Source: Verrucomicrobiota bacterium (GTDB taxonomy: Bacteria; Verrucomicrobiota; Verrucomicrobiia; Chthoniobacterales; Terrimicrobiaceae). Taken from it: 64,000 nt of DNA. Shown here piece by piece: positions 7,714-56,680 of this stretch (its first letter is position 1; each line of letters starts with the position of its first letter). A program made the translations under genes and the position numbers. A model generated the notes under the pieces. It saw nothing but the letters and a program-made list of their open reading frames with translations. It did no database searches and was not told the origin of the DNA. The stretch lies in contig JAPLTF010000062.1 of NCBI GenBank assembly GCA_026398275.1, positions 1 through 64,000 of the forward strand. The letters run 5' to 3'.

Positions 7714-9606
7714 ATGAGGTTGATGCTCATGGCCTCTTCTTCGACGTCCAATCTTCCCCGCTGGTTCGGAACGATTCTCTGGGGAAACTCAGTCGCCCTC
7801 TCGTGGATGTGGGGGCTGGGGCTGTTTTTCTCCGTCCAGTTCACCACGCAATTCGGGGTATTCGGGCTCCTGACATTTGCGATCCCGAATTTTCTCGGCC
7901 TGCTGTGCTTCGGGCTTGTGACGCACCATCTGGCGCGCCGGCAGCCGGGGTCGGAGTCGCTCGCGCAATTCTTTGCCTCCTGGTCGCGGCCGTTCCGGCT
8001 GGTCTTTTTCCTCTACCAGATCCTGGCGATCACGCTGACGATCTTCGCGTTCCTGCGCTACGTGTGGCAGCCGCTGGGGCTTGAGCCCTGGCTGCTCTAT
8101 CTGCCGCTGACCCTGCTGGTGATCCTGGCCGCGGCGATTCTGTTCGGGGAGGAGTTTGACATCAAGCGGATCAAGTTCAGCCACGGGGTCCTGTTTCTTC
8201 TCATGGCACCGGCGATCGCATTTCTGATCATCTTTGCGGCCATGAAGGGGACCGGTCCGCTGTCGTTTCCGAGGCTGCCGACAAACGACTGGAACTACTG
8301 GGGGTATGCGGTTCCGATCATCATCGGATTTCTCGTCGGGCCGTGGCTCGACCTCCAGCAGTGGCAGCGTGCGATTCAGATGCACCGGGAGCGGGTCTCG
8401 ATCGCGGCCGGATACTGGATCGGGTCGACCCTGTTTTTCCTCCTGCTCATGTTCCACGGGTTGATGACCGTCTGGGCGCTGAACTGGGGCGAGGCGGCGG
8501 CGTTTATCCGGGTGGGGATCACCGGGCACAATTACGGCGAGGGGATCCTGACGAGCCTGTTTTCGCAGGCCGGTCCATGGACGTTCGCAGCTTATGGAAT
8601 CTTCGTCTCCGTCTGCGTGCTCACCACGCTCGACAGCGGCTACGTCGCGCTGAGATGGTTTTTGCAGTCGAATGCGAACACGAGCAACCATCCGATTTTT
8701 TCGCTGGTTTCCACAAAGCTGCTCACATCGCCGATTCCGGTGTTTCTGCTCTGCGGCCTGGTGGCCCTGGCGGGGACGCTGCTGAAGTTCGAGCTCGAGT
8801 TTTTCATGATCTTCTACGCGACATTTTTTGTCGGCTACTCGACGCTTGCGATCGTCCGCTGCTACCTCGTGAGCCGGGCCAACGCGATCCCGCAGATCAA
8901 GATGTTCTGCATCGGGAGCCTGGCCGTCGTGATTTTTTCCTACGGCTATTTCCTCCGCTCTCCGTTCTTTCAGATCCTGGGCTCACTTCTGCCGCTCGGG
9001 TATGTAATCTGGCTGCTGATCAAGCCGAGCTCCTCGGAGGAGTTCCTGAGCGACAAGGACGAGCTGGATGCGCAGGTCTCCGACTCCGCGCCGAGCGCGG
9101 GGGCTGTGATGAGTCCGCCGGAAGGGGAGGCTCAGGCCACGCATGTGATCCCCACGGCCGACGACATCGCCGCGTTCACGCACAGCCTCGGGGGGCACTT
9201 CGAGGGCAAGTGGTTTGTGCATTCCTTCGTGGCGACATATGGGGACACCAATTCCGTCGGCAACGTGTATTTCGGGATGTATGCGATGTGGGTCGGGAAA
9301 ACCCGCGAGCTCTTCTTCAACCGGCTGATGCCGAAATTCAATCTCAAGAGCACGCCGTTCTACATCCTGACCCGCTCGTTCGAACACAAGTTTGTGCGCG
9401 AGACGCGCGAGTTTGAGACCGTGAGCGTGAAGATCCGGGTGGCCGGCTACAACCGGAAGTTTGCGACCCTCGAGCATGAGATCTTCGACTCGGCGGGGCA
9501 CGTTCTGGGCCGGGGGAAACAGACGCTGCTCTTCGTCTCCTCCAGTGACTATAAAATGCTGGATATCCCGCCCGATGTGTATTCTGCGTTCATTGCGCAC
9601 ACTTGA
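7714..9606 (+). CDS. Multi-spanning transporter-like protein fused to a hot-dog thioesterase domain
   Basis: 630 residues. The first ~440 form about 11-12 hydrophobic segments with the loop GPWLDLQQWQRA, resembling the sodium:solute symporter / APC fold; the substrate is unknown. After a polar linker, residues ~480-625 read as a 4HBT hot-dog domain: YGDTNSVGNVYFGMYAMWVGKTRELFF corresponds to the YxDTDxxGHVxY...RxEFL signature of acyl-CoA/acyl-ACP thioesterases, closest in feel to CalE7-type enzymes. The ATG at 7714 follows a GGAGGG about 15 nt upstream; an open TTG start at 7690 is less likely. It leads a tight run with the GH75-like lipoprotein (27-bp gap) and two ketosynthase genes, so an acyl-related role is plausible. 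The fusion itself is unusual. Confidence 0.68.
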   Translation: MRLMLMASSSTSNLPRWFGTILWGNSVALSWMWGLGLFFSVQFTTQFGVFGLLTFAIPNFLGLLCFGLVTHHLARRQPGSESLAQFFASWSRPFRLVFFLYQILAITLTIFAFLRYVWQPLGLEPWLLYLPLTLLVILAAAILFGEEFDIKRIKFSHGVLFLLMAPAIAFLIIFAAMKGTGPLSFPRLPTNDWNYWGYAVPIIIGFLVGPWLDLQQWQRAIQMHRERVSIAAGYWIGSTLFFLLLMFHGLMTVWALNWGEAAAFIRVGITGHNYGEGILTSLFSQAGPWTFAAYGIFVSVCVLTTLDSGYVALRWFLQSNANTSNHPIFSLVSTKLLTSPIPVFLLCGLVALAGTLLKFELEFFMIFYATFFVGYSTLAIVRCYLVSRANAIPQIKMFCIGSLAVVIFSYGYFLRSPFFQILGSLLPLGYVIWLLIKPSSSEEFLSDKDELDAQVSDSAPSAGAVMSPPEGEAQATHVIPTADDIAAFTHSLGGHFEGKWFVHSFVATYGDTNSVGNVYFGMYAMWVGKTRELFFNRLMPKFNLKSTPFYILTRSFEHKFVRETREFETVSVKIRVAGYNRKFATLEHEIFDSAGHVLGRGKQTLLFVSSSDYKMLDIPPDVYSAFIAHT

Positions 9607-9633
9607 GCCGGGCGGCCGGCTCCGATCGATCCC

Positions 9634-11007
9634 ATGAGCAGATCCAGGCGTTCCAAAATCCGGATTGTCCGGCTCTCCGGATTTGTGCTGGCGGGGATGC
9701 TGCTGACCGGATGCCCGACAAGGCCGCCGGCACCTCCGCCCACGCCGACGCCAACGCCCGCCCCTTCGCCGGTCGCCACGCCAACGCCGGTGCCGACCCC
9801 TCCTCCGGTCCCCTCGATCCCACGCAAGCCGTTGGCCACCGCAAAGCTCTTCAACGGGCTGGCGCTTCAGGCGAAATTGATTCCGGAAAAAAGTTCCGCG
9901 CTTGCCTCGCAGGACCGGCTGGATCTCGACGCGTATCAGGTCGAGGTCACCGTCCGGGCCCGGCTCCCCCGAGCAAGCGATTCGGCCAGGGATTTTCTCA
10001 AAAACGATCCGTTGCTTCCCGGCGCGTTCAACGACTTCGACGGCCTTCTGGCCATCGCGAGGGTCTCGCCGTTTTTTGACAAGCTATATGCGCTCAAGCT
10101 CGCGCAGATCGAGCGCGAGATCGGGCGGTTGGACGTGATCCTTGCCCGGCACAACTTTTACGATTGCGAGACGATCCTGGATGTGGAGAACCCGGTCACC
10201 GGCAGGCGCGCCGTGCTGGCGGTCGGCGACATGGATGTCAACGTGGACGGGTCGGATGGCGATCGCAATGTCTCGGTGGACGGCTCGTCGCAATTTTTCC
10301 TTCCACAAACGAGCTACCGGTGGCCGAAGCAGACGGATCGGGAAAATCCATTCGTTCCCGTCGAGCAGGCCCGGCTGAATGCGCTGAAGGCCGAGCTCTC
10401 CGCGGGGCCAACGGCAGTGCGGAAGAAGGAAATCGAGGAGGCCATCGATATCGCGAAGCGCCGCATCTTCGACATGAAGAAGTGGAGCTTCCTCATCTCC
10501 GAGACCGATCCCTTCATCGTGCTGCCGGGGTTCATGATGCGGGACAAGGACAACCCGTTCTCTCCGGCGATCGGAGATTTTGCGCTCGTGATCTTCGGCG
10601 GCAAGGCGTATCCCGCCGTGCTCGGCGACGCGGGGCCATCCCTCAAGCTGGGCGAGGCCTCGCTTCTGCTCTGCCGGGAGATCAACGCGCGCTCCTCCGG
10701 GCTCGCAGGAGCCGTGAGCGACCTCAAGGTGGCCTATCTGGTTTTTCCCGGAACCGCCGGGGAGCACACGCCGCCGGATCTCGAAACCTGGCGGGCCAAA
10801 TGCGGGCAGTATGCCAGTGAGCTCGGCGGGCTGAAGGTTCCGATCCATAGCTGGCCGAATCTCGTGAAGCCCTGGCCCACGCCGACTCCCACACCAACGC
10901 CAATCCCCACACCTGGGGCAACCCCCGAGCCCACTCCGACAACTGCCCCATCAGCTTCCCCGGGCGAACCGCTTGTGGTCACACCTCCGGTTCCTTCGGT
11001 GAACTGA
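9634..11007 (+). CDS. Lipoprotein with proline/threonine-rich linkers and a GH75-like domain
   Basis: 457 residues. A lipobox LLTGC puts the lipidated cysteine at residue 27. A Pro-Thr repeat linker follows (~28-63) and a second one closes the protein (~420-445). The central domain carries GH75 (chitosanase) hallmarks: GDMDVNVDGSDGD (compare DMDIDCDG), PQTSY, ETDPFIVLPGF and YPAVLGDAGPSLKLGEAS (compare GDxxxxxxxGEAS), with Asp and Glu of the last motif as candidate catalytic residues. It may bind or cut an amino-sugar polymer at the cell surface, but activity is not certain. It lies 27 bp after the transporter-thioesterase gene and 13 bp before the ketosynthase. Confidence 0.62.
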   Translation: MSRSRRSKIRIVRLSGFVLAGMLLTGCPTRPPAPPPTPTPTPAPSPVATPTPVPTPPPVPSIPRKPLATAKLFNGLALQAKLIPEKSSALASQDRLDLDAYQVEVTVRARLPRASDSARDFLKNDPLLPGAFNDFDGLLAIARVSPFFDKLYALKLAQIEREIGRLDVILARHNFYDCETILDVENPVTGRRAVLAVGDMDVNVDGSDGDRNVSVDGSSQFFLPQTSYRWPKQTDRENPFVPVEQARLNALKAELSAGPTAVRKKEIEEAIDIAKRRIFDMKKWSFLISETDPFIVLPGFMMRDKDNPFSPAIGDFALVIFGGKAYPAVLGDAGPSLKLGEASLLLCREINARSSGLAGAVSDLKVAYLVFPGTAGEHTPPDLETWRAKCGQYASELGGLKVPIHSWPNLVKPWPTPTPTPTPIPTPGATPEPTPTTAPSASPGEPLVVTPPVPSVN

Positions 11008-11020
11008 ACGATTGCCCGCC

Positions 11021-12229
11021 ATGGGGACTGCCCGATCCGCTCCGACGACAACATCTCCGCAGACCTGCCCGGTCATCACCGGCTTGGGATGTCTGAGCCC
11101 GCTCGGGTGTGATGTCCCATCGACCAGCGTGGCGCTGGAGGCTGGCGCGGATGGGATTTCTCGGGTCCGGCTGTTCTCCGTGGATTCGTTTCAGGCCCGA
11201 ACCGCCGGGCAGGTTCCTGAGGAATTCGAAGCCAACTTCAAGAAACTTCATGGCGGCGGCGCGGAATGCTCAAGGGCTGCAAAGCTCGTGTTTTTGGCGA
11301 TGCATGAGGCGCTGGCGGCACGTCCGGAATTTGTCCCGGAGGTGGTTGTGGCGGGAACCACAAGCGGAGGCATGGATTTCGGCGAACTGTTTTTTCGCGG
11401 GCAGGCTGCCGGAATGACGCAGCGGATGGCGCGTCATTGGCTTCGCGGATATGTGCCGCAGCAGCCGGTCCTCGAAGCGATGGAGGCCTTCGGTTTTGAC
11501 GCGCCCGTGCGGGTCGTCTCAAACGCGTGTGCGTCCGGCACGAATGCGCTCTGCCTTGCCGCAGGCCTCGTCAGGAGCGGACGGGCAAAGCGGGCCATGG
11601 CAATCGGGTTCGATGGGCTGGCCGAACTGGTGTTTGCCGGCTTTGATTCCCTCCGTGCGTCCACCACGGAAAAGTGCCGGCCATTCGACTCGGCGCGCAC
11701 GGGGCTCGCGCTGGGCGAGGGGGCCGCATGCTTCCTGATCGAAGCGCCCGATGACGTGCCGCGTTCGGTCGTGCGCGCATCCGTGGCCGGCTGGGGATTC
11801 GCGAATGACAACCACCACCTCACGCAGCCCGAGCCCTCGGGCGCGGGTCCAAGACTCTCGATGGAGCGCGCGCTCGCGGACGCCGGATGGACCGGTGTGG
11901 ACTATATCAACGCGCACGGGACGGGGACGCCATTCAATGACTCCAGCGAGGCGGCCGCCATCCGGGCCGTGTGCCCGTCCGCCCCCGTGAGCAGCACCAA
12001 AGGAATGACCGGACACGCGCTCGGGGCCGCAGGTGCCATCGAGGCCGCTTTCTGCGTCCTGGCGATGGAAGGCGGCTTTCTTCCTCCGAATATCAACCTC
12101 CGCGAAACCGACAGCGGCCTGGACATTGTCGCGAATACCTCCCGCTCCGCCCGCCTGGGCCGCGTGCTGTCCAACTCCTTCGGATTCGGCGGTTCGAATG
12201 CCACGGTTCTCCTGGAGAAAGTGCCATGA
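11021..12229 (+). CDS. Beta-ketoacyl synthase (KAS II / FabF-like), catalytic
   Basis: 402 residues, thiolase fold. It performs decarboxylative condensation of a malonyl-thioester with an acyl chain. The Cys-His-His triad is complete: C170 in VSNACASGTNA, H299 in NAHGTGTPFND and H332 in KGMTGHALGAAG. The end SNSFGFGGSNATVLL is typical. An upstream TTG (11012) is possible; the ATG at 11021 is preferred. The stop overlaps the next gene by ATGA, giving a ketosynthase/ketosynthase-like pair as in type II polyketide or aryl polyene systems. No acyl carrier protein, acyltransferase, ketoreductase or dehydratase lies nearby, so any partners must be elsewhere. It is not next to the fatty acid genes at 24.5-27 kb. 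Confidence 0.85.
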   Translation: MGTARSAPTTTSPQTCPVITGLGCLSPLGCDVPSTSVALEAGADGISRVRLFSVDSFQARTAGQVPEEFEANFKKLHGGGAECSRAAKLVFLAMHEALAARPEFVPEVVVAGTTSGGMDFGELFFRGQAAGMTQRMARHWLRGYVPQQPVLEAMEAFGFDAPVRVVSNACASGTNALCLAAGLVRSGRAKRAMAIGFDGLAELVFAGFDSLRASTTEKCRPFDSARTGLALGEGAACFLIEAPDDVPRSVVRASVAGWGFANDNHHLTQPEPSGAGPRLSMERALADAGWTGVDYINAHGTGTPFNDSSEAAAIRAVCPSAPVSSTKGMTGHALGAAGAIEAAFCVLAMEGGFLPPNINLRETDSGLDIVANTSRSARLGRVLSNSFGFGGSNATVLLEKVP

Positions 12230-13254
12230 AGGATCAACCGCTCTCGATTCTTGGCGTCGGATGCGTGACGGCTCTCGGGCGGGAATGGGAGACCGTCTGG
12301 CAGAAAATCTGCGCTGGGGTGCCCCCGGAGCCCGAGTCCCTGCCATGTCCGGGGAGCCTGCCTGTCGCTGTCTACAAGACCGCGCTGCCCGGCGTTCCGG
12401 ATGCCATCAGCGCGCGTTTGCGGCGGTCCGGACCGATCTCGTATTTAGCCTGCGCGGCGGCTGCGGATGCCGTTCTACAGGCAGGGCCGCTTCCCTGCGG
12501 GCGGACGGCTTTGGTTTTTGCAGCATCGGATGGAGCGGTTTCCTACACCCGGCGGTTTTACGAGGAGGTGGTGGGGCGCGGGGCCGGCAGCCCGCTGCTT
12601 TTTCCGGAGACTGTCTACAATGCCCCCGCCAGCCATGTTGCGGCGATGCTTGGCCTGGATGGGACAGTGCTGACTCTCGTGAATGATGCGACCGCCGGCA
12701 TGGATGCGCTTTCTACTGCTGCCGACCTCATTTCTTCGGGCGATGCGGATCGTTGCCTTGTTGTCGCCGCCGAGGAGCTGGATTGGATTTCGTGCGACGG
12801 ATACCGGCGGTGGAAACTGGCGGCATCCGGTTCCGGAGATGGGGCCGTGCTCGCCGAGGGGGCGGTCGCGCTCGTGCTGGGCCCGCCGTCTGCTTCCTGC
12901 GTGCAGATCTCGAGGATTCATCCGGGCAGGACACTGCTCCGTCACCGGGCCGCCGGACAAACGATCCGGCAGGTTCTTGCGGAGCTGGCGGATGGAGCGA
13001 CTCCCGACCTTGCTGTGCTTTCCTCCACCGGCTCACGGACGGGGATCGTCGAGGAATCGCTGGTGCGGGAGTGCTTCCCGCGCGCCCGCCTCCTCTTTCC
13101 GAAGCGCGTTGCCGGCAACGCGTTTGCCGCATCCACTCTTTTGCAATGCCTGTGTGCCTGGCAGGAACTGCAGTGCGGAGGGCAGGCGATTGTCCCGGTG
13201 CTGGGTTCGAGCGGGCAGGTCGGAGGCGCATTCCTGAAAGGCCCGGAGATCTGA
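12226..13254 (+). CDS. Degenerate ketosynthase (chain-length-factor-like partner)
   Basis: 342 residues with the thiolase fold (LGVGCVTALG at the N-terminus; the C-terminal strand is recognisable), but with no catalytic residues. The active-site cysteine is replaced by Ala155 in LVNDATAGMDA, the first His motif reads SSTGSRTG, and the second reads KRVAGNAFAAS with Asn for His. It is also ~60 residues shorter than its neighbour. The ATGA overlap with the intact ketosynthase suggests equal synthesis and a heterodimer, as for chain length factors of type II PKS. Known CLFs usually have Gln at the cysteine position, so Ala here sets it apart. It is not a simple pseudogene, because the frame is clean. 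Confidence 0.7.
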   Translation: MKDQPLSILGVGCVTALGREWETVWQKICAGVPPEPESLPCPGSLPVAVYKTALPGVPDAISARLRRSGPISYLACAAAADAVLQAGPLPCGRTALVFAASDGAVSYTRRFYEEVVGRGAGSPLLFPETVYNAPASHVAAMLGLDGTVLTLVNDATAGMDALSTAADLISSGDADRCLVVAAEELDWISCDGYRRWKLAASGSGDGAVLAEGAVALVLGPPSASCVQISRIHPGRTLLRHRAAGQTIRQVLAELADGATPDLAVLSSTGSRTGIVEESLVRECFPRARLLFPKRVAGNAFAASTLLQCLCAWQELQCGGQAIVPVLGSSGQVGGAFLKGPEI

Positions 13255-13504: not shown

Positions 13505-14428
13505 ATGAAAAAAGAAGTCATTCCCCACGCTGGCTGGAACCGCAATCTCTCCCTCGCCAACGACCATGCCGAGGTTGTTGTCACACTGGACGTCGGCCCC
13601 CGCATCCTCAGCTACAAGCGCCCGGACGGCGAAAACGTTTTTAAAAACTACGACGATCAGCTCGGGGGATCGGGCGAATCGGATTGGAAAATCCGTGGCG
13701 GCCACCGGTTCTGGATCGCCCCCGAGGACGAGGTGATCTCCTACCATTTGGACAACCATCCGGTCGATTACCGGATCGAGGAGTTCACCGAGGAGATTGT
13801 GATCGATTCCCTCCAGTCGCAGTCCGGGCGGATCATGAAAACCCTGGGCGTCACGCTGGCGGACAACGATTCGCACGTGACCGTCCGCCACACGGCGAGG
13901 AACGACGGCGACGAGCCGATCCAGATCGCATCGTGGGCGCTCAGCGTCATGAAGCCGGGCGGCGTCGAAATTATTCCGCAGCCGCCCCTGGGGGTGCATC
14001 CGCGCGACCTGCTTCCCAACCGCGGCATCGTTCTCTGGCCCTACACCGATCTTTCCGACGCCCGCTGGCATCTGGGCCGGGAATTTTTCACCCTCCGCCA
14101 GAGCGGGGGATTTCCTCCGACCAAAATCGGGCTGGCGCACCGGGAGAAGTGGATCGCCTACGTCATCGAGGACTCACTTTTCATCAAGACTTTCGACCAT
14201 GTGACCGGCGCGGTCTACCCCGATGGCGGATGCAACTTCGAGACGTTCACGAACGACGAGATGCTCGAGATCGAGTCCCTGAGCCCGCTTGCGGCCCTGG
14301 CCCCGGGCGAGTCGGTCTCGCATACGGAAAACTGGTATCTCTTCCCGATCGGCGGCGAGGCGCAGATCGAGTCCGAGGAGGCGCTTGCCAACTGGCTGAA
14401 ACCCTTCCTACAACGAGCGGGGGTCTGA
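13505..14428 (+). CDS. DUF4380-like, galactose-mutarotase-fold protein
   Basis: 307 residues, no signal peptide. The pattern HAEVVVTLDVGPRIL, GGHRFWIAPE, an all-beta layout and the end SHTENWYLF resemble DUF4380 / aldose-epimerase-like beta-sandwich proteins, whose role is poorly known and may be sugar binding or epimerisation. The ATG at 13505 is chosen over an open start at 13457 because the family-like part begins there (MKKEVIPHAGWNRNLSL). The 250-bp gap before it (13255-13504) has no gene that I can see. The lipoprotein gene follows after 3 bp and is probably cotranscribed. Confidence 0.55.
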   Translation: MKKEVIPHAGWNRNLSLANDHAEVVVTLDVGPRILSYKRPDGENVFKNYDDQLGGSGESDWKIRGGHRFWIAPEDEVISYHLDNHPVDYRIEEFTEEIVIDSLQSQSGRIMKTLGVTLADNDSHVTVRHTARNDGDEPIQIASWALSVMKPGGVEIIPQPPLGVHPRDLLPNRGIVLWPYTDLSDARWHLGREFFTLRQSGGFPPTKIGLAHREKWIAYVIEDSLFIKTFDHVTGAVYPDGGCNFETFTNDEMLEIESLSPLAALAPGESVSHTENWYLFPIGGEAQIESEEALANWLKPFLQRAGV

Positions 14429-14431
14429 GCG

Positions 14432-14920
14432 ATGAAAATGAAAAATTGGAAATTCGAGGTGTCCCGGCTGCTGGCCGGGTTGTGCGTGCTGCTGGCGATC
14501 TCCGGTTGCGAGACCGTGGACGTGAACGCCGGGGCAAGGGCGGAGATGAATGCCGCGATCGCAAGCGAGCAGCCCGGCGACTATTTCATCGGCCGCCGGA
14601 TGTATAAGCAGGATTACAAAATGTGGGGCTGGGTCCGCGAGCCGGGCAAGCCGTGGAAAACCGCCAGGCACGTGATGTTCAACGAGCAGATCAAGCTCGC
14701 TCCGGACCGCGAGGCCGGGAAGCTCGGGTCGGACAACAATTACGAATACCGTCTGACCGGCGGCTTCTCCGGCCAGCTCATCTACGAGCCGGCCAGCGAC
14801 CGCTTCTATCCCGAGTTCGTCCTGAAAGGCTACGAGCTGAAGTCCACGACTCCGGCTCTGATCTACAGCACGAAGCGCGAGGAAGATCCCGCCGTCCGGA
14901 TCCTGGCGCCCCCGCTGTAA
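14432..14920 (+). CDS. Small lipoprotein of unknown function
   Basis: 162 residues with a positively charged start, a hydrophobic core and the lipobox LAISGC (lipid on C26). The mature part is polar, with RRMYKQDYKMWGWVREPG, and has no domain that I recognise. It starts 3 bp after the DUF4380-like gene, so the two form a unit. Its stop is 1 bp from the stop of the convergent SulP gene, leaving no room for a separate terminator. Confidence 0.6.
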   Translation: MKMKNWKFEVSRLLAGLCVLLAISGCETVDVNAGARAEMNAAIASEQPGDYFIGRRMYKQDYKMWGWVREPGKPWKTARHVMFNEQIKLAPDREAGKLGSDNNYEYRLTGGFSGQLIYEPASDRFYPEFVLKGYELKSTTPALIYSTKREEDPAVRILAPPL

Positions 14921-22006: not shown

Positions 22007-23194
22007 ATGGCCCGACATGCGCAGTCCCTTTCGACCGGATATGACAACACCCAGCACCTGAGCATGGGGGTTCTGGCGTTGTGTTTTCCTGTTGTGGAGG
22101 TCCAACGCATCATTGAGCAATGCGGCAAGGCCAGCCGCCGGGTCCGGGATCTGCCGGCTGTGGTGGTGGTTTTTTATGTGATGGCGATGAGCTTGTTCCC
22201 GGCGGTGGGCTATCAAAGCGTGCTGCGCTGGCTGCTCTGCGGTCTGCAGTGGCTGGGGTCGGGCAACTTCCGGCTCAGCGGCAAGGGTTCCTTGAGCCGG
22301 GCGAGGCAGCGCCTTGGCGAAGAGCCCGTGAAGCGGGTGTTCGAGCAAATGGCTGCGCCCCTGGCTGACGCCAACCTGCCGGGCAGCTATTGGAAAGGTC
22401 TTCATGTGGTCGCATTGGATGGCAGCACGCTGGCCCTGCAGGACACCGCCTCCAACGAGGCGGCCTTCGGGCGCTCATCGAACCAGAACGGCAAAGCCGC
22501 CTATCCCATGAGCCGGTTTGTCGCTCTGGCCGAAGTGGGCACCCACATGATCTTTGCAGCGCGCCTGGGGCGTTACGACACGTCGGAGATCGAACTGGCC
22601 AAGACGCTTGTTGACCATTTGCGCCCCGGAATGCTTTGTCTTGCCGACCGTCTCTTTCCTGGCACTCCGCTGTGGAAGAAGGCGGCGGCGACCGGATCCC
22701 ATTTGCTTTGGCGGGCCAAGACATCGCTTCAACTAACCCGCATTGAGGACCTGCCCGACGGATCATGGCTGGCGCGCTGGACTCCGTCGCAGGGGCGTAA
22801 AGGCGCCTCCCCGGACCTGGTGGTTCGGGTTGTCGAATACCGCCTCAACTCGCGAGACGGGGAGATCTACCGCCTGATCACCACTCTCACTGATCCCGCC
22901 TTTGCCAGCGCACAAGAGCTGGCCGGGTTCTACCCGCAGCGCTGGGAGGTGGAGCTGACGATCAAAGAGGGCAAGAGCATCCTGCGTCAAAAACAACTCA
23001 CCCTGCGCAGCAAAGTGGCCCCCTTGGTGCGCCAGGAATTTTGGGGGCTGCTCCTGGCCCACTATATGGTGCGTAAAATGATGGCCAGAGCCGCGCTGGA
23101 CCGCGGCATTGATCCCGACGGACTCAGCTTCCAGAACAGCGTGGAAATCATGAAATCCACTCACACAGGCCCTGTCCTGTCCTTTTCCCCCTGA
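22007..23194 (+). CDS. IS4-family transposase, frame ends early at a CCC-TGA
   Basis: 395 residues up to the first stop. The DDE triad is D138 (VVALDGST), D214 (LCLADRLFPG) and E316. E316 is part of FYPQRWEVELTIKEGK, which fits the IS4 YREK spacing Y-(2)-R-(3)-E-(6)-K exactly. The frame stops at TGA 23192-23194, but the next frame continues from GAG 23193 with EARKSVIGTMLRDIGFS and a basic tail typical of the family, ending with TAA at the first bases of the right terminal repeat. The joined protein would be ~455 residues. The N-terminal half is complete, so only the last 60 residues are split off. Confidence 0.88.
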   Translation: MARHAQSLSTGYDNTQHLSMGVLALCFPVVEVQRIIEQCGKASRRVRDLPAVVVVFYVMAMSLFPAVGYQSVLRWLLCGLQWLGSGNFRLSGKGSLSRARQRLGEEPVKRVFEQMAAPLADANLPGSYWKGLHVVALDGSTLALQDTASNEAAFGRSSNQNGKAAYPMSRFVALAEVGTHMIFAARLGRYDTSEIELAKTLVDHLRPGMLCLADRLFPGTPLWKKAAATGSHLLWRAKTSLQLTRIEDLPDGSWLARWTPSQGRKGASPDLVVRVVEYRLNSRDGEIYRLITTLTDPAFASAQELAGFYPQRWEVELTIKEGKSILRQKQLTLRSKVAPLVRQEFWGLLLAHYMVRKMMARAALDRGIDPDGLSFQNSVEIMKSTHTGPVLSFSP

Positions 23195-32876: not shown

Positions 32877-34799
32877 ATGAAACATGCAATGGAATCCCGG
32901 CCGATCCGCCGGGCTATGTTGATCTTTTCCGCCGTCATTGCGATGGCTGCGCGGGGAAGTGCCCAGGATGCCGCGGACGGGGCCGCGAAGCCAGAGTCGA
33001 TCAACGAGGGCGTCCCGTGGCCCGCGACCGACGCGCTGGGGCGCGAGCTTCCGCTCACTGCGGAAGTCGGGCCGCCGAAAAAGGACCGGTTTATGGGGAT
33101 CTTTTACCTTTCATGGACCGGCGACGAATTCAGCTACGGCCCTTACGACGTGACGAAGATCCTGGCCGAGCAGCCCGACATGGAGACGGCCCCGAGCTTC
33201 CGCCACTCGGGACCGAAGACCTGGCACATGGCGCACTGGGGCGAACCGCTGTTTGGCTACTACAAGCTGACGGACCCGTGGGTCATCCGCCGCCACATGC
33301 ACCTGCTGGCCGATGCCGGGGTTGACACCCTCGTGATGGACGCGACCAATGGCGACATCTACGAGGACATGCTCAACCAGTTCCTGCCCGTGCTGCTGCA
33401 AATCCGCAAGGAGGGCGGGCGCACCCCGCGGATCTGTTTCATGCTCAACACGGACATGGGCAACATGGCCAGGCAACTGTTGGAAAAGTTCTACCGTCCG
33501 GGGCGCTTCAATGATCTGTGGTTCCACTGGGAGGGGAAACCGCTGATGCTCTGCGACCCCGCAGCGGCTGGCCCGGAAGTCAGGGACTATTTCACCCTGC
33601 GCACCGCCTTCTGGCCCGGCAGTCCTCCCTACAAGAACACGCCCTACGCGTGGCACTGGGAGTCCGTTTACCCGCAGGCCTACGGTTTCACCACGGATCC
33701 CAATGTGGCCGAGCAGATCAACGTCTCGCCCGCGCAAAACATGAACTGGGAGACCGGAGCCTGCGAACTGATGCACACCGGCAAGGCGCGCGGACGCGGT
33801 TTCCACGGCGGCAAGCAGGACCCGTCCATCGAAGCCATCCAGCGCGGGCTCAATTTTCAGGAGCAGTGGGACCGCGCGCTCAAGGTTGACCCGAAGTTCG
33901 TCATGATCACTTCCTGGAACGAGTGGATTGCCGGGCTCACGCATTCCATGCGCTCCGGCTGGGTGCAATGCGACTCGTTCAACGAGGAGTTCAGCCGCGA
34001 CATCGAGCCGATGAAAGGAGGCTTCGGGGATAATTTCTACTACCAGGCCATCGCCAACATCCGGCGCTACAAGGGCGTGCCGGAAATCCCTGTTGCCGGC
34101 TCGTTCACGCCGGGCGGCCAGAAGAGGGTCATCGACATCGACGGATCCTTCGACCAGTGGAAAGAGGTGGCTCCGGAATACCAGGGGCACGCGGGCAATA
34201 CGATCCCGCGCGATCACGACGGGTTCGGCCGCGCGCCGAAGACCCGGATCACCGTCCCGAGCCCGGCCTTCGAGGGCAACGGGGCCACCTGGCGCGGGCA
34301 GGATGGGCCGCGCTACACCAACAAAACGGGCCGCAACAGCCTGCTTTGCATGAAGGTGTGCCGCGACCACAACAACGTCTACTTCTATGTGCGGACGGAA
34401 AAACCGATCACGCCCTCAACCGACCCGAACTGGATGACGCTGCTCATCCGCACCGGGAACCCGGCCAATCACACCTGGAACGGATACGACTTCATCGTCA
34501 ACCGTGTCCCTCCGGGCAAAGGCGGCGCGCTGCTGGAAAAAAACAACGGCGGCTGGAATTGGCTGCGGGCGGCGGACGTCAGGTTCAGGGTTGAAGGCAA
34601 CGAGATGCAGATGGCCGTGCCGCGCTCGGCAATGTTCAAAATGTCGGAAACCCGCAACGAGCGGCTGACGGCTGACCCGCTGACCTTCGACTTCAAGTGG
34701 CTGGACAACATCAAAATGCCGGACGACCTTTCGGTGCTTTACACTGATGGAGACACCGCGCCGCTCGGGCGTTTCCGGTTTCGTTACATTACCAAATAA
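32877..34799 (+). CDS. Secreted GH71/GH99-like glycoside hydrolase with C-terminal beta-sandwich (copy 1)
   Basis: 640 residues with a signal peptide (RRAMLIFSAVIAMAARGSAQ). The barrel part (~65-410) has DRFMGIFYLSWTGDEFSYGPYD, the strand AGVDTLVMDATNG and the end FVMITSWNEWIAG. The SWNEW motif is shared with the GH99/WbsX group. Residues ~425-640 form a beta-sandwich starting VIDIDGSFDQWKEV, like CBM9/DOMON carbohydrate-binding modules. A close paralogue lies at 35591-37438 and is alike over the whole length, so this is a tandem duplication with one small gene between. The ATG at 32877 is chosen because it precedes the signal peptide. The exact activity is unknown. Confidence 0.72.
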   Translation: MKHAMESRPIRRAMLIFSAVIAMAARGSAQDAADGAAKPESINEGVPWPATDALGRELPLTAEVGPPKKDRFMGIFYLSWTGDEFSYGPYDVTKILAEQPDMETAPSFRHSGPKTWHMAHWGEPLFGYYKLTDPWVIRRHMHLLADAGVDTLVMDATNGDIYEDMLNQFLPVLLQIRKEGGRTPRICFMLNTDMGNMARQLLEKFYRPGRFNDLWFHWEGKPLMLCDPAAAGPEVRDYFTLRTAFWPGSPPYKNTPYAWHWESVYPQAYGFTTDPNVAEQINVSPAQNMNWETGACELMHTGKARGRGFHGGKQDPSIEAIQRGLNFQEQWDRALKVDPKFVMITSWNEWIAGLTHSMRSGWVQCDSFNEEFSRDIEPMKGGFGDNFYYQAIANIRRYKGVPEIPVAGSFTPGGQKRVIDIDGSFDQWKEVAPEYQGHAGNTIPRDHDGFGRAPKTRITVPSPAFEGNGATWRGQDGPRYTNKTGRNSLLCMKVCRDHNNVYFYVRTEKPITPSTDPNWMTLLIRTGNPANHTWNGYDFIVNRVPPGKGGALLEKNNGGWNWLRAADVRFRVEGNEMQMAVPRSAMFKMSETRNERLTADPLTFDFKWLDNIKMPDDLSVLYTDGDTAPLGRFRFRYITK

Positions 34800-35590: not shown

Positions 35591-37438
35591 ATGCCCGGTC
35601 ATCAATCTCTCAAGCAACGCCTGTCTGCTTTGGCGGCATGCGTGCTGGCCACATCGCCGCTCCTCGGCTCCCCGGATTCCATCAACCCCGGCTTGCCCTG
35701 GCCGGCGACCGATGCGCTGGGTCGCGAGCTTCCGCTGGCCGCCGAAGTCGGGCCGCCGAAGAAAGACCGGTTCGTCGGGATTTACTACGTCGGCTGGACC
35801 GGCGACGAATACAGTTATGAGCCTTATGATGTGACGAAAATTTTGGCTGAGTATCCCGACGCACCAAAGGCCCCGAATTTTCCGCACCGGGGGCCGAAGA
35901 CGTGGCACCTGGTGCATTGGGGTGAGCCGCTTTTCGGTTATTACAAACTCACCGACCCATGGGTCATCCGTCGACACATGAAACTGCTTTCCGATGCTGG
36001 GGTGGACACGCTGGCCCTCGACGCCAGCAACGGCGAGATCTACGAGGACATTTACCGCCAACTGCTCACCGTCATGGACCAGATCCGCAAGGAAGGCGGG
36101 CACCCGCCGAAATTCTTTTTCTTTGCGTCGCACGCCGTCGGAAAAACCTCGACGGAGTTGCTGGAGAAGTTCTACAAGCCGGGGCACTTCCGGGATCTCT
36201 GGTTCATGTGGGACGGCAAGCCGTTGCTGATGGGCATGAGCAATCCTGATCCAGAGGTGAAGGAGTTTTTTACCATTCGGGAAGCGGCCTGGCCGGGTAG
36301 GCCGCCATACAAAAACACCCCCTACGCCTGGCATTGGGAGAACGCCTATCCCCAGACATACGGTTTCACCGAGGACCCCAACGTGGCCGAGCAAATGAAT
36401 GTCTCGCCCGCGCAGAACATGCACTGGCAGACGGGCGCGCTCGAAATGATGCAGACCGGCGAGGCGCGCGGGCGCGGGTTCCACCAGGGCGCGAAAGACC
36501 CGTCCCTCGACGCCATCCAGCGCGGGCTCAACTTCCAGGAACAATGGGACCGCGCGCTCAAGCTCGATCCGAAGTTCATCATGATCACCTCCTGGAATGA
36601 ATGGCTCGCCGGACTGGGCGATTCTTTCCAGGTGCACTACGCGCTGTGCGACATGTTCAACGAGGAATTCAGCCGCGACATCGAGCCGCTCAAGGGCGGG
36701 TTCGGGGATAACTATTACTACCAGGCCATCGCCAACATCCGCCGCTACAAGGGCGTTCCGGAAATCCCCGAAGTCACAGTGCCCAAAACGATCGACATCG
36801 CCGGGTCCTTCGACCAGTGGAACGACGTCGGCCCGGATTTCCAGGGGCACACGGGCAACACCATCCACCGCGACCATGACGGGTGGGGCCGCGCGCCGAA
36901 AACCCGCGTCACCCCGTCCACCCCGCCTTTCAAGGGCGACGGAAAAATCTGGCGCGGGCAGGACGGCCCGCGTTACGTCAACAAAACGGGCCGCAACAGC
37001 CTGCTGTCGATGAAAGTGGCCCGCGACAAGGATTACCTCTACTTCTACGTGCGGACGGAAAAGCCGATCACGCCGCAGGCCGACCCGAACTGGATGACGC
37101 TCCTCATCCGCACCGGCGACCCGACCCATCACACCTGGAGCGGCTACGATTACATCATCAACCGCGTCCCGCCGGGCAAGGCCGGCGCCGTGTTGGAGAA
37201 GAACAACGGCGGCCGGAATTGGCTGAAGGCGGCGGACATCATGTTCCGGGTGGAAGGCAATCAGATGCAAATGGCCGTGCCGCGTCTTGTCCTCGGTCTA
37301 ACAGGCGATCCGGTTCAGTTCGATTTCAAGTGGTTGGACAACATCGCGCTCCCGCTGCCGGACGACCTGTCGGTGTTCTACACCGACGGCGACACCGCGC
37401 CGCTCGGGCGGTTCCGATTCCGTTATATCACCAAGTAA
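35591..37438 (+). CDS. Secreted GH71/GH99-like glycoside hydrolase with C-terminal beta-sandwich (copy 2)
   Basis: 615 residues, paralogue of the gene at 32877. Signal peptide near residues 1-25 (SALAACVLATSPLLGS). The barrel motifs match copy 1: DRFVGIYYVGWTGDEYSYEPYD, AGVDTLALDASNG and FIMITSWNEWLAG, then the beta-sandwich starting TIDIAGSFDQWNDV. The C-terminal end GDTAPLGRFRFRYITK is identical to that of copy 1. It has its own operator candidate 44 nt upstream. The sulfatase gene starts 2 bp after its stop, so the two are one operon, which suggests joint action on a sulfated glycan. Confidence 0.72.
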   Translation: MPGHQSLKQRLSALAACVLATSPLLGSPDSINPGLPWPATDALGRELPLAAEVGPPKKDRFVGIYYVGWTGDEYSYEPYDVTKILAEYPDAPKAPNFPHRGPKTWHLVHWGEPLFGYYKLTDPWVIRRHMKLLSDAGVDTLALDASNGEIYEDIYRQLLTVMDQIRKEGGHPPKFFFFASHAVGKTSTELLEKFYKPGHFRDLWFMWDGKPLLMGMSNPDPEVKEFFTIREAAWPGRPPYKNTPYAWHWENAYPQTYGFTEDPNVAEQMNVSPAQNMHWQTGALEMMQTGEARGRGFHQGAKDPSLDAIQRGLNFQEQWDRALKLDPKFIMITSWNEWLAGLGDSFQVHYALCDMFNEEFSRDIEPLKGGFGDNYYYQAIANIRRYKGVPEIPEVTVPKTIDIAGSFDQWNDVGPDFQGHTGNTIHRDHDGWGRAPKTRVTPSTPPFKGDGKIWRGQDGPRYVNKTGRNSLLSMKVARDKDYLYFYVRTEKPITPQADPNWMTLLIRTGDPTHHTWSGYDYIINRVPPGKAGAVLEKNNGGRNWLKAADIMFRVEGNQMQMAVPRLVLGLTGDPVQFDFKWLDNIALPLPDDLSVFYTDGDTAPLGRFRFRYITK

Positions 37439-39423: not shown

Positions 39424-39521
39424 CCCGAGCGCTGTTCCGCTGCTGACCCTTCTTGGCCGGACTGCCCGATCCGGTGATGTGCCGGATCAAATTCCATCAA
39501 AAAAAACCAAAGACGAATCCG

Positions 39522-41111
39522 ATGACATCGAGACACTCCCTCCGTGCGATTGCGCTGGTGTTCCTCTCTGCGCTGCCCGTGGCAGCCGAATCCCAGCCCC
39601 CGGCCAAGTCCAACATCTCGCTTCTTGAATATGGCGCGCGCTTCGACGGCGTGACCGACGACACCGAGGCATGGAAACGCGCGATCAAAGATGCGCTCTC
39701 CGGCCCGTGGGGAGCGGTGATCAAAGTTCCCGCCGGGCGCAGCGTGGTGAGCGAAACTCTCGTGGTTGAGATCACCGGCAACGAGGGGCTGGCCATCAAC
39801 GGTGAGGGTGCCGACATCAGCGAAATCATCTGGACCAAACCCGTGGACGGGATTCGCGTGGAGTTGGTCGATGGTTCCGCCTCCACTCGGGACGAGGGCG
39901 GGACCGGCGCCAAGTTCAAGATGTCCGGCGTCTCGCTGATCCAAGGCACTCCCTTCGTCAAGGTCGACACCACCGATCCCGTGCCGGCGGGCAGCACGCA
40001 ACTGCATCTGGCCACCACCGAGGGACTGCAGCCAGGCATGCACATCGACAGTTTCTGCCAGCGGATGTCCAACATCCCCCAGACCGCCACGATTGCCCGC
40101 ATCATCGATGACAAGACCGTGGAGCTGACCGAAAAAACCACCGGCCCGATGCCGGAAAGGGTGAGAAGAGGCGAAGAGTTGACCACTGAGAATAAGGCGC
40201 TCTACGAAATCGTGTTTGTTCAATATGCCGGCACGGCCCTGAGTATACGCGGTCGGTCGAACCAGCAACTCGGGGTGGAACCGCCCGAACTCATGATCAG
40301 CGATGTCAGCATCCACGGAGGATCGGGTGGCAGCGCTTTGACCGCTGGCAGCTGTTGGCGAGACGGGATTGTCTTGAAAGACCAGACCACCTTGCGGATC
40401 ACCGACACCGCGATCCGGTTCTCACGCGTTTCGCCCGTAGGCACGGGCATCACCATCTCCGGTGATCGGTCCAAGTCTCGATTGGTATCCGATCACCATC
40501 TGGAAAACGTCCGGATCCAGTGGGGCGAGGTCGGAATCTCGGTCTGCAACGGCGATGCCAATTTCGAAGGTTTGATGATCATGAACAGCACGATCGTGGG
40601 AAGCCGGCGCGCCGGAATCCTGGCTGACAATGGCGGCAGTTATTCCGGGCAACTGACCGTGACGGGCTGCCACATCAACGCCGGCGAAGCGGCCATTAAA
40701 ACGAATGGCATACTGGAAGTCGGTCTGTGCAACAACTACATCATCGCCGGCCATTCCCCAAGCCCGCGCCCGCTGGCCGTCGGCTTCGATTTCAAGAACA
40801 CAGCGTCCATGACCATCACCGGCAACCTGTTCAACTTCAACCCCGCCAATCCCGCGGGAGGCTGGGGGATCATCGTGGACTGCGACGAGAAATGGGGCGG
40901 ACGGACGATTCCCGCGGTGATCGCCAACAATTCCATTTTCAACCCGCCCACGGGAGGACTCTCGTTCCGCAACCATGCGACCAATATTCTGGTCAACGGC
41001 AATTCCATTGTCACGGCCGGCAAACCGGTCGAAGTGGCCGGAACCGCCAAGGTGAACGTCGGCATCAACCAGATCAACGGGGAGATGGTCACCGGGCTTG
41101 AAAAGAAGTAG
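39522..41111 (+). CDS. Secreted right-handed beta-helix protein, pectate-lyase-3-like (copy 1)
   Basis: 529 residues with a signal peptide (HSLRAIALVFLSALPVAAES). The start of the mature part, [20 protein letters not shown], is the hallmark of the pectate lyase 3 / GH28-like superfamily, and the rest shows parallel-beta-helix rungs (ITGNLFNFNP, ILVNGNSIVTAG). Substrate and whether it is a lyase or a hydrolase are unknown. A paralogue lies on the other strand at 53492-55045, nearly identical in the last ~45 residues. The ATG at 39522 precedes the signal peptide; the frame is open to 39453. The URO-D family gene follows after 12 bp. Confidence 0.75.
   Translation: MTSRHSLRAIALVFLSALPVAAESQPPAKSNISLLEYGARFDGVTDDTEAWKRAIKDALSGPWGAVIKVPAGRSVVSETLVVEITGNEGLAINGEGADISEIIWTKPVDGIRVELVDGSASTRDEGGTGAKFKMSGVSLIQGTPFVKVDTTDPVPAGSTQLHLATTEGLQPGMHIDSFCQRMSNIPQTATIARIIDDKTVELTEKTTGPMPERVRRGEELTTENKALYEIVFVQYAGTALSIRGRSNQQLGVEPPELMISDVSIHGGSGGSALTAGSCWRDGIVLKDQTTLRITDTAIRFSRVSPVGTGITISGDRSKSRLVSDHHLENVRIQWGEVGISVCNGDANFEGLMIMNSTIVGSRRAGILADNGGSYSGQLTVTGCHINAGEAAIKTNGILEVGLCNNYIIAGHSPSPRPLAVGFDFKNTASMTITGNLFNFNPANPAGGWGIIVDCDEKWGGRTIPAVIANNSIFNPPTGGLSFRNHATNILVNGNSIVTAGKPVEVAGTAKVNVGINQINGEMVTGLEKK

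Positions 41112-53491: not shown

Positions 53492-56680
<3,189 letters not shown>

Follow-up and report, generated by a model that had tools for sequence, protein, structure and literature searches.

Layout of the four-gene locus

The window analysed here is a 64,000-nucleotide stretch, positions 1 to 64,000 of contig JAPLTF010000062.1 of a Verrucomicrobiota bacterium (assembly GCA_026398275.1). Recomputing coordinates on the window gave four open reading frames, all on the forward strand and spaced by 27, 13 and -4 bp, exactly as in the preliminary description. The first two, here called module A, encode a transporter-like/thioesterase fusion (7729..9606) and a GH75-type lipoprotein (9634..11007). 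Module B consists of KS1, a ketosynthase (KS) of the ApeO type assigned by Pfam, invariant residues and tree (11021..12229), and KS2, a dead, chain-length-factor-like ketosynthase of 342 aa assigned by Pfam and alignment (12226..13254). KS1 and KS2 join in a 4-bp ATGA overlap. For the fusion gene, the end first given at 9606 was retained and the start was not: homologues open at a later in-frame ATG and share a start reading MA..., so the true start is probably 7729, with 7714 a less likely upstream ATG.

The whole four-gene order recurs in two further genomes of the genus and the four genes are under purifying selection, so the array is more than chance. Since the order is common to three genomes and the gaps in the window are short, co-transcription is likely in this genus. 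Two further genes follow on the same strand: one for a DUF4380-like protein (13505..14428; sub-threshold Pfam match) and one for a small lipoprotein (14432..14920). In relatives the KS pair stands elsewhere, often followed by these same two genes as at 13505-14920 of the window; the DUF4380-like gene comes after the pair in several of them, and the small lipoprotein lies after or near it in families f1, f5, f6 and f7. In family f8, an OstA-like gene, named by eye and with no Pfam match, follows the KS pair. Farther along the window, an IS4-like transposase gene was noted by eye (22007-23194), as were two pairs of similar-looking paralogues (39477-41111 with 53492-55045, and 32877-34799 with 35642-37438) in what looks like a polysaccharide-degradation region.

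KS1 and KS2 are a gene pair of the ketosynthase/chain-length-factor type

Cys170 (11528-11530), His299, Lys327 and His332 of KS1 are invariant in 15 homologues, and C170, H299 and H332 make up the Cys-His-His set of an active ketosynthase. KS2 carries Thr156 (in the motif NDATAG) at the Cys position and lacks both His motifs. By Pfam it matches the N-terminal ketosynthase domain only, the C-terminal domain being unrecognisable, and at 342 aa it is intermediate in length. The Cys is absent from every aligned KS2 homologue, and a FPETVYNAPASH-type block is conserved in all of them. The 4-bp overlap of KS1 stop and KS2 start is shared by the majority of 31 loci, which represent several families. 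KS2 evolves faster than KS1 (dN/dS by NG86 of 0.19-0.26 versus 0.11) and is still under purifying selection. KS2 is thus an adjacent KS homologue that has no Cys nucleophile and is kept by selection, as expected of a chain-length factor (CLF). The AlphaFold model of KS2 had a mean pLDDT of 38, too low to use. Scanning the genome contigs with the single KS2 sequence returned one locus (L142).

One comparison is with the KSalpha/KSbeta/ACP set of actinobacterial type II polyketide synthases (PKS). Both have adjacent KSalpha and KSbeta genes, a dead KSbeta and a dedicated acyl carrier protein (ACP). Actinobacterial KSbeta typically carries Gln at the Cys position, whereas Thr, Ala, Ser or another residue is found here; moreover, the ACP is unlinked in this system and no cyclases were seen. 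A diverged stand-alone KS pair was also observed in another genome (L140 8210-10419, G015), about 3 kb from SDR, alpha-oxoamine-synthase-like (serine palmitoyltransferase-like) and GNAT-like genes.

Homologous pairs lie within aryl-polyene-type clusters

In lineages other than those where the pair is detached, its homologues occur inside clusters of the aryl polyene (APE) type. The L223 cluster contains genes for an AMP-ligase, a tryptophan-halogenase-like flavoenzyme, LolA, an ACP (44% identical to an E. coli APE ACP), a ketoreductase (KR; 36% identical to ApeQ), KS2, KS1, a ligase-like protein, a dehydratase-like protein and an MMPL protein. Large parts of such a cluster are present in L216, L224, L225, L227, L229 and L230, and also in L248-L250, which belong to the window's own order and have a more diverged KS pair; ORFs in these relatives' loci were drawn by a codon-score caller, and some boundaries are still rough. 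The contiguous clusters, which look aryl-polyene- or flexirubin-like (L223, L224, L225, L248, L249 and L250), come from multiple families of the class, including the window's own family and order, and several include a tryptophan-halogenase-like flavoenzyme.

In the tree, KS1, the cluster KSs and E. coli ApeO fall on one side and FabF, FabB and ApeR on the other (branch support 96/94), with ApeO a long branch within its side. The tree rules out KS1 as a FabF; the genome has FabF-like copies of its own on contigs C27 and C56. Judged by its residues, its position on the ApeO side and the homologous pairs inside APE-type clusters, KS1/KS2 is a ketosynthase/chain-length-factor pair of the aryl polyene (ApeO/ApeC) type, which bears out the earlier reading of the two genes as an active plus an inactive ketosynthase of this kind.

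We compared the system part by part with the APE synthase of E. coli CFT073 (ApeO-ApeC, ApeE/F, ApeQ, ApeI/P and ApeL/M/N). An active KS of the ApeO clade with an inactive, shortened partner and an ApeE/F-type ACP are common to both; LolA, MMPL/RND export genes and an acyltransferase have counterparts in the window's relatives. The KS and CLF genes are adjacent and overlapping here, whereas ApeC lies far from ApeO in E. coli, and the parts in the window's own genome are spread across three or more loci. Here there is also a tryptophan-halogenase-like flavoenzyme, and no ApeR-like KS was recognised.

Aryl polyene clusters are already known in Verrucomicrobiota, an APE-type cluster having been reported for Oceaniferula flavus (PMC9865893). 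Verrucomicrobia are unmentioned in the main text of a type II PKS catalogue (PMC10132072). As judged from L223-L225 and L248-L250, and not gene by gene from PMC9865893, such clusters share the KS-CLF-ACP core with the window's lineage; theirs are contiguous, whereas in this lineage only KS and CLF have stayed side by side.

Candidate further parts are scattered in the genome

Searching the window's own genome for ACPs gave five matches. One, at positions 43765-44031 of contig C65, is of the APE ApeE/F type, 42% identical to the ACP of the L223 cluster and 41% to an E. coli APE ACP. The preliminary description had suggested looking for unlinked partner genes, and such an ACP thus exists. It sits among unrelated genes in this genome and in relatives alike: the ACP gene (L150 7765-8031, minus strand) adjoins a glycogen-phosphorylase-type gene and points away from an S4/FtsJ-type methyltransferase gene, and several relatives share this arrangement.

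The KS pair and this ACP co-occur. Both were present in 32 genomes and neither in 11, with two and one discordant in either direction (p 6.6e-8, shared ancestry ignored); the genomes had been picked with KS status known and ACP status not known, and the ACP calls rest on the correct query residues 1-70, the last ~18 query residues being wrong. The exceptions are G002, which has the ACP without the KS, and G045 and G053, which have the KS without the ACP (the G045 assembly is 84% complete). KS and ACP are jointly absent in parallel within genus g2 and families f2, f12 and f6.

The tryptophan-halogenase-like flavoenzyme is encoded at positions 114480-115712 of contig C37 and also co-occurs with the KS pair (28 both, 5 neither, with 2 and 1 discordant; p 3e-4, shared ancestry ignored). 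It had no match in G047 and G026, both of which have KS and ACP. A small lipoprotein follows the flavoenzyme, and 2.4 kb upstream of it lies an SDR reductase, 42% identical to ApeQ, that may or may not belong to the KS pathway. In relatives from families f6 and f8, the flavoenzyme is the first gene of an operon that also encodes a small lipoprotein, an MMPL exporter and LolA and, in some, an LpxL-type acyltransferase; completeness varies. These are the same kinds of gene as those for E. coli ApeM, ApeL and the acyltransferases, for which a role in delivering the polyene to the outer membrane has been proposed (PMC8253772). The operon (flavoenzyme, small lipoprotein, MMPL, in some the LpxL-type acyltransferase, then LolA) was also seen at loci without ketosynthases (L257, L258, L259, L266, L268 and L269).

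No dedicated ApeI-type dehydratase was detected in the genome with PF22818, the sole, sub-threshold match being an LpxC-FabZ fusion. The gene for this fusion lies at L185 6960-8261 (contig C72); LpxC-FabZ fusions are known from Bacteroidota. Other genes of related kinds were noted in this genome. Contig C56 carries a type I polyketide synthase of 2063 aa (L117 12196-19766), and the next gene there encodes an LpxL-like acyltransferase that has an additional domain at its C-terminus; contig C102 carries KSIII, ACP and MaoC-like genes within a sugar/O-antigen-like locus (L151 8916-10601).

The KS pair, ACP and flavoenzyme therefore do not form a contiguous cluster in this genome but lie on three contigs. 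The scatter is no assembly artefact, because they are also apart on one contig of G006, an assembly of three contigs: on its 3.76-Mb contig the KS pair is at 2.610, the flavoenzyme at 2.529 and the ACP at 2.495 Mb, that is, 34 to 115 kb from one another, with 0.73 Mb between the fusion and the KS pair. None of the papers listed in our literature search described a dispersed APE pathway.

The transporter-thioesterase fusion and the GH75-type lipoprotein

The final 130 residues of the fusion (~9211-9591) match the hot-dog thioesterase family PF13279 (2e-10). The nearest solved relatives of this domain are the thioesterase 5vpj, DynE7, CalE7 and an 'ACP-polyene thioesterase'. With the enediyne polyene thioesterases CalE7 and DynE7 it shares, in addition to the hot-dog fold assignment, the Asn/Arg motif DTN..GNVY....Y..W.G..RE. 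Unlike them, it is fused to a polytopic symporter-like domain and has no linked type I enediyne PKS.

The membrane half had no Pfam match, including PF00474, in any of 14 members examined. Its profile matched L148, a PF00474 symporter protein, at 70 bits and other transporters at no more than 1 bit, with controls that include own-genome symporters, two of five mis-framed. A divergent origin within the sodium:solute symporter superfamily is therefore probable, through the single intermediate L148. At E <= 1e-20, the phylum sample of 387 genomes has the fusion in 10, all within the same class, and its high conservation extends to genomes that lack a KS pair altogether. None of the papers listed in our literature search described a symporter-thioesterase fusion. 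As with KS2, the AlphaFold model (mean pLDDT 40) was too low to use.

The lipoprotein has its Cys27 encoded at 9712-9714, and the catalytic Asp332 (10627-10629) and Glu341 (10654-10656) are both invariant among homologues. The window protein itself had no Pfam match. GH75 (PF07335) was matched by 11 of 12 of its homologues (best 6e-13), so that the family profile is reached via these and not by the window protein alone. Homologues also match the viral chitosanase V-Csn (3e-13), and E341 and D332 are the counterparts of E157 and D148, the catalytic residues mutated in that enzyme. The lipoprotein has this catalytic pair and the motif GD.GPS.K.GE in common with the fungal and viral (V-Csn) GH75 chitosanases, from which it differs as a bacterial lipoprotein with a long N-terminal region. 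Of 197 genomes of the order, 186 have a homologue, whether or not KS genes are present. The lipoprotein gene is directly 3' of the fusion in families f1, f2, f7, f9 and f13, and not in the f12 loci read. No polyketide genes are conserved near the fusion-lipoprotein pair in the relatives' loci read.

The two modules are joined in one genus only

The fusion occurs together with a close KS2 homologue in ten of the sampled genomes. Module A adjoins module B in three of them (G000, G001 and G003, out of four genomes of the genus), and the two are unlinked in the other seven (G006, G009, G010, G012, G047, G051 and G055). The fourth genome of the genus, G002, has module A, no KS and other genes at that site. 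Across 58 genomes, the presence of the fusion and that of KS2 are independent (Fisher p 0.78). Modules A and B are two old, unrelated modules, joined only by rearrangement in one genus.

These data do not bear out the view of the four genes as one system that the preliminary description had put forward. Homologues of the two pairs are mostly unlinked, with adjacency in one genus only; as regards the joining of the pairs, this is the outcome that the preliminary description had named as refuting its view. A role of the thioesterase as release enzyme for the KS product is likewise unsupported, because the fusion and the KS pair are unlinked in 7 of the 10 genomes and independent in presence. The lipoprotein had been taken as a pointer to an envelope destination; it is uninformative in this respect, occurring in 186 of the 197 genomes regardless of KS.

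Discussion

The reading that we favour, at a probability of roughly 0.78, is that module B is the core of a dispersed aryl-polyene-like pathway and that module A is an independent envelope unit, the two having been joined in one genus. The KS/CLF anatomy and APE-type ancestry of the pair are observed. So are the ACP and the flavoenzyme at unlinked loci, and the tendency of both to occur where the pair does. As predicted from sequence, KS1 and KS2 would form a ketosynthase/chain-length-factor heterodimer in which KS1 carries out decarboxylative condensations and KS2, as the non-catalytic partner, shapes the cavity and sets chain length. The pair would act on the APE-type ACP encoded on contig C65, probably joined by FabG-like reductase and FabZ-type dehydratase activities and, as we propose, by the tryptophan-halogenase-like flavoenzyme of contig C37. 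The product may be a polyene-like acyl chain for an envelope lipid. In module A, the fusion is most likely an acyl-thioesterase anchored in the membrane and carrying a symporter-like domain, and the lipoprotein most likely a surface glycoside hydrolase.

It is unlikely that the four genes act as one unit, in which the chain made by KS1-KS2 would be released by the membrane thioesterase and then moved to, or acted on at, the envelope by the transporter domain or the lipoprotein. The order common to three congeneric genomes and the short gaps, with the co-transcription they make likely there, are what such a unit would look like; polyene (enediyne) thioesterases are the nearest relatives of the hot-dog domain, and a thioesterase, ApeK, is likewise encoded in the APE cluster of E. 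coli (PMC8253772). Against this stand the joining in a single genus, the separation in 7 of 10 genomes that have both modules, the independent presence over 58 genomes, the high conservation of the fusion where the KS pair is absent and the presence of module A without KS in congeneric G002.

We consider it similarly improbable that KS1-KS2 is an auxiliary fatty-acid elongation pair working on the housekeeping AcpP and feeding membrane or lipid A synthesis. KS presence tracks an APE-type ACP distinct from AcpP, homologues of the pair lie inside APE-type clusters, and KS1 groups with ApeO, not FabF. These points outweigh the lack of a detected dedicated dehydratase in the genome, the solitary position of the pair in most of the order (with the by-eye OstA-like neighbour in f8) and a presence across most of the order that suggests a general role. 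That KS2 is a functionless, decaying duplicate of KS1 is very hard to sustain: its catalytic residues are lost and it evolves faster than KS1, but its dN/dS is 0.19-0.26, the FPETVYNAPASH-type block is present in all its homologues and the overlap with KS1 is kept over many families.

Building on the dispersed-pathway reading, we tentatively suggest, at somewhat less than even odds, that a minimal type II PKS (KS, CLF, ACP and flavoenzyme) has come apart, its genes being retained at scattered sites, like core genes, throughout an order of Verrucomicrobiota, where it may make an undescribed polyene-like envelope lipid that cluster-based mining cannot see. A conserved but unclustered synthase in common soil bacteria would escape such genome mining. 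It would be a natural example of secondary metabolism whose pathway genes have become dispersed and core-like, and it gives a testable prediction for poorly studied bacteria: a KS-CLF pair and a distantly encoded ACP should together make an aryl-polyene-like lipid.
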